Below are positions 48,941-51,761 of a stretch of 64,000 nucleotides of DNA, in pieces. This stretch comes from Aquificota bacterium. Its GTDB lineage: Bacteria > Aquificota > Aquificia > Aquificales > Aquificaceae. Location of the stretch: contig CP076324.1 in the NCBI GenBank assembly GCA_018771605.1, positions 1,527,700 to 1,591,699 of the forward strand, read 5' to 3'. Both the position numbers and the translations under genes were made by a program. The notes below the pieces were generated by a model. It was not told the origin of the DNA and searched no databases. It saw nothing but the letters and a program-made list of their open reading frames with translations. Each line of letters opens with the position of its first letter. The stretch's first letter is position 1.

Positions 48941-49173
48941 GGACCTTGTGGCTTGTTAGAAAGTTGGGAGACTTTAGCTCAGACTTGGTGGAAGAGGATG
49001 ATATAGTTATACTTATCCAAGATGGTGTTTTGCGCTTTCCCACAAGGAAGGGTTGGTATGCTTGTAAAGAAGATGCCCAGGCAAGGGGCATAAAAATACC
49101 AGAAAACCTTACAAAGAGCTACCAAGAGATAGCCGATCTAATAGTAAAGGCCGAAAGGGTGGTGGTGTGGTGA
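48934..49173 (+). CDS. DsrH/TusB-like protein
   Basis: 79 residues: DIVILIQDGVLRFPTRKGWYACKEDAQARGI and a C-terminal RVVVW match DsrH/TusB. It overlaps the previous gene by 7 nt, and its stop overlaps the next start as TGATG. Third partner of the predicted DsrEFH complex. Confidence 0.82.
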   Translation: MVRTLWLVRKLGDFSSDLVEEDDIVILIQDGVLRFPTRKGWYACKEDAQARGIKIPENLTKSYQEIADLIVKAERVVVW

Positions 49174-49667
49174 TGAAGTGGCAGATTACAAAGACCTTTA
49201 GGTTTGAGGCTGGCCATAGGGTTTGGAAGCAAAACCTCACCTGTGGAAGGGGTGCGGAGCTTACCCTTGGAAAGGAAGTGCCTGTAAACAAGTGCGTAAA
49301 CCTTCATGGACATAGCTACCTGTTGGAAGTAGTCATAGGGTCCAACGTGCTATCAGAACAGGAGATGGTTTTGGACTTTTACCATGTAAAAAACGCTTTG
49401 AAGGACCTAATAGACACCATAGACCACAGCTTTATCATAGATGTGAAGGACCCAATGTATGAGGAGCTAAAAACTGTGGCGGAAAAGTACGGAGCCTTAA
49501 AGATATTTCCAGTGGATTTTTGTCCCACTGCGGAAGCCTTGGCCAAGTTCTTTTATGACTTTTTGGTGGAAAAGCTATCTCAGGTGGGGCTTTTGGGAGA
49601 GGTAAAGGTGGTCAAGGTGGTCCTTTGGGAAACGGCCACCTCAAAGGCGGAGTATTACGGTGAATGA
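49173..49667 (+). CDS. queD: 6-carboxy-tetrahydropterin synthase-like (QueD/PTPS)
   Basis: 164 residues of the T-fold family. Zinc histidines lie in FEAGHR and LHGHSY, with the catalytic Cys in NKCVNLHGH; the Asp-His pair is in TIDHSFII and a C-terminal Glu in LWETATSKAEYY. It makes the queuosine precursor or a related pterin. An insertion between the first His and the Cys (KQNLTCGRGAELTLG) makes it longer than E. coli QueD. The start codon overlaps the dsrH stop. Confidence 0.87.
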   Translation: MKWQITKTFRFEAGHRVWKQNLTCGRGAELTLGKEVPVNKCVNLHGHSYLLEVVIGSNVLSEQEMVLDFYHVKNALKDLIDTIDHSFIIDVKDPMYEELKTVAEKYGALKIFPVDFCPTAEALAKFFYDFLVEKLSQVGLLGEVKVVKVVLWETATSKAEYYGE

Positions 49668-51667
49668 ATTTAAAGATAGCACTACCAGGTGGGAGAAGCC
49701 TTAAAGTAAAGGCAGAATTTCCCTACGCAGGCAGTCCAGTAGGCTACCGAGTTCTCATAAGGGGTAAAACTGGCCTTGTGGTGGGATTGGCAAAAGAGGG
49801 AGAAGCCATAGACCTTACCTTTCCCGATGAAAAGCCCATTACAACAGAAAAACATATCCTGTCCATCCTTGAAACGGCCAATTACTTTGCCCAGCTACCT
49901 TGGAAGCTTCTCTTTGACCTTATGCCCTCTGTTTTTGACTGGAGGGAGGAGGAATACATCCGCCTTGGAGAAAAGGACTGGAAGTTTATTGATAAGCTAA
50001 GCCTTAAGGTGCTTGAGTATGTAAAAACAAGAAGGGCTGTAAAGGAGGAGAGTCTAAAAGAAAAGTTTGGGAGGGATTTGGTTGAAAAGCTCTTGGAGCT
50101 TGGCTTTTTAAAGAGGGTAAAAGAGTGGAAGATGCCAGACCTTACTACCACCTACTACAGCCTCCTTGTGCCATTGGAAGATGCCCTCCAAAGGCTAAAG
50201 CCCTTTAAAAAGAAGGAAGAAAAACTGAGGCTCATATACTACCTTTTTGAGAATAATATAGCAAGCAGGGAAGAGCTACGGTTGGCAGGCTTTAAGGGTG
50301 ATGATATAAAAGCCTTGGTCCAAAAGGGCATAATAGGAGAAAGGGAGGAAATAATTCGTGAGATAAGGGGTGCGCCCACCATAAGGCAGGCAAGGGTGGA
50401 GTATGTAAAGCCCTTGGGAAAAAGGTCAGTAATCTTTGGTCATTGGGAGGGTCTAATAAGCCATGTGGCGACACATCTTGAACGACTTGTAAAAGAAGGG
50501 AAAAACACCTTTATCTTTTGCCCCAGTATATCCCTTCTTTCTGTTCTGTTTGAGCATCTTTATCCCCTTTTGGGAGATAGGCTAATCCTCCTTAGGTCCC
50601 AAGATAAGCCAAAGGACTTTATCAAAAAGTGGTTTTATATTTCCTCCGCCGATGGCATTGTGCTTTTGGGAAGCAAAATAGCCCTTTTAGCACCTCTAAA
50701 AAGCATGGACCTGCTCATCTACTTTGATGAAAACACATCCAAGGCATTGGAAGGCTTTGATATAAGACACTTTCTCTATACCCTTTCCAGGTATTACGGT
50801 GCAAACTTTTTGCTTGTTAGCACCTTTATGCCCCTTAGCCTATGCACAAGAGAAGATTGGGAAAGACACTACCATGCGCCGCAGGCGGAGGTTTTTGTCT
50901 TCAAAAGAAAAGCCCAAGAGATCCTTTCACCTTCGGTAAGAGAGCTTATAAAAAACAGCCAAGAGGAGTGGCTTTTCCTTGTAAATAAAAGTGGTTATGC
51001 CTATGCCTTTTGCAGTTTTTGTGGTTGGATGGTGGAATGTCCAAGGTGCAAGGGCTTTTTGACCTTGAGCAAGGATAAGGAAAGGGTCTTTTGCACCTCT
51101 TGCGGGTATAAGTCCCATGCCCTATGCCCAGAGTGTGGCAGACAGCTCAAAGAGCTTGGCTTTGGCATAGAAAAGGCCATAGAAGAGGTACACAGGCTCT
51201 TTGGAAATAGAGAAAACTTTCACTTTGACACGGTGCCAAGGCTCGGGAAGAGTTATGACAATGTTTTAGTGCTTCACTCAGACAATATCCTTTCGGTGCC
51301 TTGGTTTGATTCCTTAGAAAGGTATTTTTCTTACCTGTGGCAGGCACTCTGTATTAGCAAAAAAAGGCTAATAATCCAAACGGCGCTGGAAGACAACCCT
51401 GTATTGGAGTTTATCAAAAACAAGGACTGGCATGGCTTTTGCCAAGAGGAATTAAAAAGGAGAGAGGAAGAGGACCTTCCACCCTTCAAAAGGCTCGTAA
51501 GGGCAAGGTTAAGGTCGGAGCCAAACTTAAAAAACCTTCCTGTGGAGGCAAAAGGCAAAAGGCTTGAAAAACTTTGGGAGCTTCTTATAAAGGTGGATAA
51601 AAAACATCTCAAAGAGCTTTTAAAAAGATTAAGGGAATACCAGCCCGTGGACCTTGAAGTGTTTTGA
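49664..51667 (+). CDS. priA: PriA-like primosomal protein with degenerate helicase motifs
   Basis: 667 residues with the PriA order: N-terminal 3'-DNA-binding domain, winged helix, helicase core, and an intact zinc set (CSFC, CPRC, CTSC, CPEC). The Walker A site reads FGHWEGLISH (about 262) instead of GxTGSGKT, and the Walker B site reads YFDENTSKALEG (about 353) instead of DEEH. It should not hydrolyse ATP like E. coli PriA and may act only as a loader or scaffold, as proposed for degenerate actinobacterial PriA. It overlaps queD by 4 nt. Confidence 0.85.
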   Translation: MNLKIALPGGRSLKVKAEFPYAGSPVGYRVLIRGKTGLVVGLAKEGEAIDLTFPDEKPITTEKHILSILETANYFAQLPWKLLFDLMPSVFDWREEEYIRLGEKDWKFIDKLSLKVLEYVKTRRAVKEESLKEKFGRDLVEKLLELGFLKRVKEWKMPDLTTTYYSLLVPLEDALQRLKPFKKKEEKLRLIYYLFENNIASREELRLAGFKGDDIKALVQKGIIGEREEIIREIRGAPTIRQARVEYVKPLGKRSVIFGHWEGLISHVATHLERLVKEGKNTFIFCPSISLLSVLFEHLYPLLGDRLILLRSQDKPKDFIKKWFYISSADGIVLLGSKIALLAPLKSMDLLIYFDENTSKALEGFDIRHFLYTLSRYYGANFLLVSTFMPLSLCTREDWERHYHAPQAEVFVFKRKAQEILSPSVRELIKNSQEEWLFLVNKSGYAYAFCSFCGWMVECPRCKGFLTLSKDKERVFCTSCGYKSHALCPECGRQLKELGFGIEKAIEEVHRLFGNRENFHFDTVPRLGKSYDNVLVLHSDNILSVPWFDSLERYFSYLWQALCISKKRLIIQTALEDNPVLEFIKNKDWHGFCQEELKRREEEDLPPFKRLVRARLRSEPNLKNLPVEAKGKRLEKLWELLIKVDKKHLKELLKRLREYQPVDLEVF

Positions 51668-51688: not shown

Positions 51689-51760
51689 GGGGACGTAGCT
51701 CAGTGGGAGAGCGCCTGCATCGCAAGCAGGAGGTCGGGGGTTCAAATCCCCTCGTCTCCA
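51689..51760 (+). tRNA. tRNA-Ala (anticodon CGC)
   Basis: 72 nt that fold as a cloverleaf: acceptor GGGGACG/CGTCTCC, D-arm GCTC/GAGC, anticodon stem CCTGC/GCAGG with loop ATCGCAA (anticodon CGC), T-arm GGGGG-TTCAAAT-CCCCT, discriminator A. CCA is not encoded. TATAAT at 51671-51676 is a good -10 box. The 3' end is 1 nt from the convergent dprA stop. Confidence 0.96.
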
Positions 51761-51761
51761 C

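Follow-up and report, generated by a model that had tools for sequence, protein, structure and literature searches.

Bacterial PriA proteins that lack a working motor are already known. PriA of Deinococcus radiodurans is a pseudohelicase that has no ATPase or helicase activity and binds replication forks and DnaB (Lopper et al. 2015, PMC4504706). In E. coli, ATPase-deficient PriA (K230R) can still assemble primosomes (as cited in PMC4504706). An earlier survey credited neither Aquifex aeolicus nor D. radiodurans with a PriA (Rocha et al. 2005, PMC1193525); the D. radiodurans protein was characterized after that survey (PMC4504706).

We analyzed a stretch of 64,000 nucleotides (the window) from the complete 1.72-Mb genome of a member of the Aquificaceae. 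An uninterrupted open reading frame in the window encodes a 667-aa protein (Table 1). NCBIfam PriA models were its best family matches (E = 2e-33), below their strict cut-offs; the TIGR00595 score was 114 bits against a curated cut-off of 230, with PriA still the best-matching family. Because this equivalog cut-off describes helicase-competent PriA, we filed the protein as a divergent PriA ortholog and not as an equivalog. A phmmer search of the PDB returned PriA for all top matches (E = 2e-16). An AlphaFold model computed from 39 family sequences (pLDDT 87.3, pTM 0.78) matched PriA in all of its top nine PDB fold hits (E = 9e-29 to 1e-21); the next-ranked family followed at 4e-8. The fold and domain order of PriA are thus retained, as are the eight zinc cysteines (C450, C453, C459, C462, C477, C480, C488, and C491), and the earlier note, made from the sequence of this locus, was right on both points. 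In the alignment these cysteines were invariant or nearly so across the Aquificota families and E. coli PriA. The genome holds one copy, the groups in the PriA tree track families, and the queD-priA gene order is kept in several Aquificaceae genera, all of which point to a single, vertically inherited ortholog. Directly 3′ of priA lies a tRNA-Ala (CGC) gene (51689 to 51761, + strand), and the next gene after it, dprA-like, has the opposite orientation.

Table 1. Features of the priA locus, in positions of the window; residue numbers refer to the 667-aa protein.
Feature	Position	Strand	Basis
queD-like gene, stop overlapping priA start	49167..49667	+	name by sequence reading, without family search
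priA gene (predicted pseudohelicase), 667 aa	49664..51667	+	ORF reading; family, PDB, and fold searches
N-terminal DNA-binding (3′BD-like) domain, residues ~1-105	49664..49978	+	alignment and model; boundary approximate
Winged-helix-like region, residues ~106-245	49979..50398	+	alignment and model; boundaries approximate
Degenerate motif I (Walker A position) FGHWEGLISH, residues 258-267	50435..50464	+	alignment and model
Degenerate motif II (Walker B position) YFDENTSKALEG, residues 353-364	50720..50755	+	alignment
Cys-rich zinc region, eight cysteines, C450-C491	51011..51136	+	alignment
Site lacking ~30 residues, including motif V, that PriA of E. coli and of the Desulfurobacteriaceae has; residues ~512-530	51197..51253	+	alignment
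Position of lost motif VI (GRAGR), residues ~561-567	51344..51364	+	alignment

The motor motifs were missing from this protein. In the alignment, FGHWEGLISH occupies the site of E. coli GVTGSGKT and motif II reads YFDENT, within YFDENTSKALEG; the earlier note had assigned these two segments to Walker A and Walker B, and both fall where motifs I and II align. In the model, a strand (residues 254 to 259) runs almost immediately into a helix (261 to 277), and the phosphate loop is absent. The features of an active SF2 PriA helicase, a Walker A of the form GxxxxGK[TS] and a DEExD motif II together with motifs V and VI, were not found. GxxxxGK does not occur anywhere in the 667 residues, and structure-based comparison revealed no intact Walker motif elsewhere in the protein. 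We also considered a P-loop hidden by a local frameshift and rejected it, given that stop codons crowd both alternative frames near motif I. As a PriA ortholog without catalytic ATPase motifs, the 667-aa protein has the sequence hallmark of the pseudohelicase defined for D. radiodurans, and it may share the biochemical one, loss of ATPase with binding to forks and DnaB retained.

The loss is larger than the earlier note stated, since motifs V and VI are gone as well and residues implicated in binding of the 3′ end and of the SSB tail are not kept. Lys occupies the position of E. coli D17, a residue called crucial for 3′-end recognition in a review, and Asp was found there in only 5 of 48 aligned Aquificaceae PriA proteins. 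A counterpart of the SSB-tail residue Arg697 (Klebsiella numbering) is absent from this PriA family; it is likewise absent from PriA of the Desulfurobacteriaceae and thus says little about loss of the motor. Together, the Lys at the D17 position and the missing Arg697 counterpart suggest that fork and SSB contacts may differ from those of E. coli PriA. Other SSB-pocket positions were placed from what we presume the pocket to be, and little is drawn from their residue counts.

PriA genes were collected across the phylum, aligned with E. coli PriA, and labeled as families f1 to f5. Family f1 represents the Aquificaceae, with Hydrogenobacter, Thermocrinis, and Hydrogenobaculum among the close matches; f2 we take to be the Hydrogenothermaceae; and f5 represents the Desulfurobacteriaceae. 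Motif I was absent from 93 of 93 PriA proteins of f1 to f4, none of which carried motif I, II, V, or VI in canonical form (the two from f4 by direct reading). GSGK was present in all 15 f5 proteins (L081, L086, L088-L090, L092, L093, L097-L103, and L106), and the patterns used for motifs II, V, and VI matched in 12 to 14 of the 15. The lineage-wide loss that the earlier note had raised as a question is therefore real in f1 to f4 and stops at the Desulfurobacteriaceae. Such uniformity, with the motif missing from every f1 to f4 protein and GSGK in every f5 protein, is not the product of chance or of sequencing error. GxxxxGK strings did occur by chance in 7 of the 93 relatives, all away from motif I; one of them, the Ser-bearing GYQKEGKS at residue 241 of L091, lies one helix downstream.

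Remnants of the motor are graded from f5 through f2 to f1. All 15 f5 proteins have Met in place of the P-loop Thr (GVTGSGKM). In f2, the residue aligned with the Walker A lysine is Arg in all 26 proteins (L058-L061, L066-L080, and others) and E-E-E is mostly retained at motif II, and f1 lacks both. The most reduced form seen was that of the Hydrogenobaculum-like genus g5 (L062-L065; ~615 aa), in which some of the winged-helix region has been lost too, along with the first half of helicase lobe 1. Across the phylum, priA is open at full length in dozens of genomes, and one copy is kept in nearly all. A divergent PriA (L040) was also detected in genome G001, which we identify as A. aeolicus from its DnaC, whose sequence agrees with that of PDB entry 3ecc, the A. 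aeolicus DnaC, at all 184 residues compared. This PriA was too divergent for recognition in 2005.

Having lost the P-loop, the acid pattern of Walker B, and motifs V and VI, the 667-aa protein very probably neither hydrolyzes ATP nor unwinds DNA. The claim of the earlier note that it cannot be a normal helicase draws strong support from the alignment, the structural model, and the lack of the motifs across the lineage. Weak or unconventional nucleotide-dependent activity through noncanonical residues is conceivable, since the helicase lobes retain their fold and evolve under purifying selection and f2 places Arg and acidic residues at motifs I and II. We consider such activity very unlikely, however: the strand-helix turn of the modeled protein would leave no room for a phosphate loop, its motifs II, V, and VI are gone, and a Lys-to-Arg change alone abolishes the ATPase of E. 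coli PriA (cited in PMC4504706).

The earlier note had also allowed for a second, functional priA. A search of the complete genome with TIGR00595 returned no second intact PriA, the other matches being RecG and UvrB. The only other PriA-like DNA in the genome was a 127-aa fragment outside the window (C1:1338908-1339264, - strand; L035:1391-1780), situated between alaS and a divergently oriented hsdM-like gene of a type I restriction system. Its DNA is ~90% identical over ~375 bases to the 5′ end of priA from the Thermocrinis-like genus g8. We considered the fragment as a stand-alone DNA-binding paralogue and rejected this reading, as it is instead a truncated piece of a g8-like priA, likely the scar of a transfer between genera to judge by the sequence match.

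The genome encodes a DnaC homologue with an intact Walker A (GPPSMGKT) that matches the A. aeolicus DnaC entries 3ecc and 3ec2, and DnaC matches were detected in 130 of 136 genomes of the phylum. DnaB, RecG, and one UvrD-family helicase are also encoded, and a search for PriC found none. In one genus of the Desulfurobacteriaceae (G123-G126), dnaC immediately follows priA in the same orientation (L161:257-3357 and L162:733-3826), a gene order that hints that the two may act together.

In a tree of 103 PriA proteins, every family formed one side of a branch, and a single branch parted the motor-less f1 to f4 from f5 and the outgroups, so that one loss suffices; the tree was built by a quick method and has long branches, and its deep order is not firm. 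On these sequence comparisons, loss of the motor appears to be old and wide across the Aquificota, ending at the Desulfurobacteriaceae. PriA identity within the genus was 47 to 63%, versus 80 to 89% for the queD-like neighbor and 70 to 76% for DnaC, and this much faster divergence could reflect a shifted or weaker role. Pairwise dN/dS ratios (15 pairs) were 0.08 to 0.20 for the whole protein and 0.05 to 0.26 for degenerate lobe 1. The stepwise erosion of the motifs and the fast divergence would also fit a relic gene decaying toward a pseudogene, or a sequencing or frame error, but the dN/dS values rule out a decaying pseudogene, full-length frames are open in dozens of genomes, and the alternative frames are closed. 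We regard this explanation as highly improbable.

The reading that we favor is that the 667-aa protein is the only PriA of its lineage and a vertically inherited pseudohelicase, which we consider probable. It is likewise probable that this protein serves as an ATP-independent platform for fork binding and recruitment, with DnaC carrying out ATP-dependent loading. The N-terminal and helicase-fold domains would bind branched DNA, and the intact zinc-binding region may act as a docking surface that recruits DnaB with the AAA+ loader DnaC. DnaC would then spend ATP to load the DnaB ring, and strand opening, where needed, could fall to RecG, the UvrD-like helicase, or DnaB itself. The role of structural loader that the earlier note had proposed is consistent with the intact DnaC, the purifying selection, and the Deinococcus precedent. 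The nonconserved D17 counts against it, as do the fast divergence of PriA and the additional losses in Hydrogenobaculum.

Alternatively, PriA may have been repurposed to bind DNA for a different task (recombination, repair, or competence, for example), with restart achieved elsewhere, such as by DnaA-independent loading through DnaC alone. The fast divergence of PriA, the nonconserved D17 and SSB-tail residues, and the further domain loss in Hydrogenobaculum would all accord with such a shift. This alternative seems unlikely to us, given that nearly all genomes of the phylum keep one copy with the whole PriA fold and zinc region, that no other restart initiator was found (the search covered PriC), and that the Deinococcus protein retains binding to forks and DnaB despite its dead motifs (PMC4504706).

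Building on the platform reading, we tentatively propose a broader scenario, which as a whole has somewhat less than an even chance of being correct. Outside the Desulfurobacteriaceae, the Aquificota would have lost the whole motor once, in an ancient event, leaving an ATP-free adaptor that hands forks to a distinct Aquificae DnaC-type loader. Replication restart in these lineages would then be an independently evolved, helicase-free form with altered recognition of fork ends and SSB, and GSGKM in f5, Arg in f2, and nothing in f1 would record the order of the loss. Because A. aeolicus DnaC structures have been solved, the proposed PriA-DnaC-DnaB hand-off is directly testable with stable proteins.

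We found no report of motor-less PriA across the Aquificales in the open-access papers searched, and subscription journals may hold an earlier notice. What is new here is the extent of the loss, its completeness, and the presence of PriA in A. aeolicus. These observations extend helicase-free PriA from Deinococcus-Thermus to most of a thermophile phylum, with complete loss of the motor, and such natural motor-less proteins allow the loading role to be studied apart from unwinding.

Among known systems, E. coli PriA has the same domain order and zinc region as the 667-aa protein; it differs in that its motor motifs are all intact, it has D17 and the SSB-tail site, and its partners are PriB and DnaT. 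Within the Aquificota, PriA of the Desulfurobacteriaceae (mostly 783 to 791 aa) scores above the TIGR00595 cut-off and has an intact-looking motor with GSGK, DEExD, and GRAGR, apart from the Met substitution. Actinobacterial PriA is annotated as lacking helicase motifs. We liken it to the Aquificota proteins by description, and as it belongs to a separate phylum, its motor loss is probably independent; Rocha et al. (2005, PMC1193525) described actinobacterial PriA as a smaller, strongly divergent protein. A published counterpart is PriA of D. radiodurans, which like Aquificaceae PriA has nonfunctional Walker A and B motifs. In Deinococcus-Thermus, however, the lysine of GKT is replaced by Arg and the motif is still recognizable, whereas Aquificaceae PriA has lost the P-loop along with motifs V and VI. 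The Arg of f2 resembles the Deinococcus-Thermus state, and the two are possibly convergent early steps toward loss of the motor.
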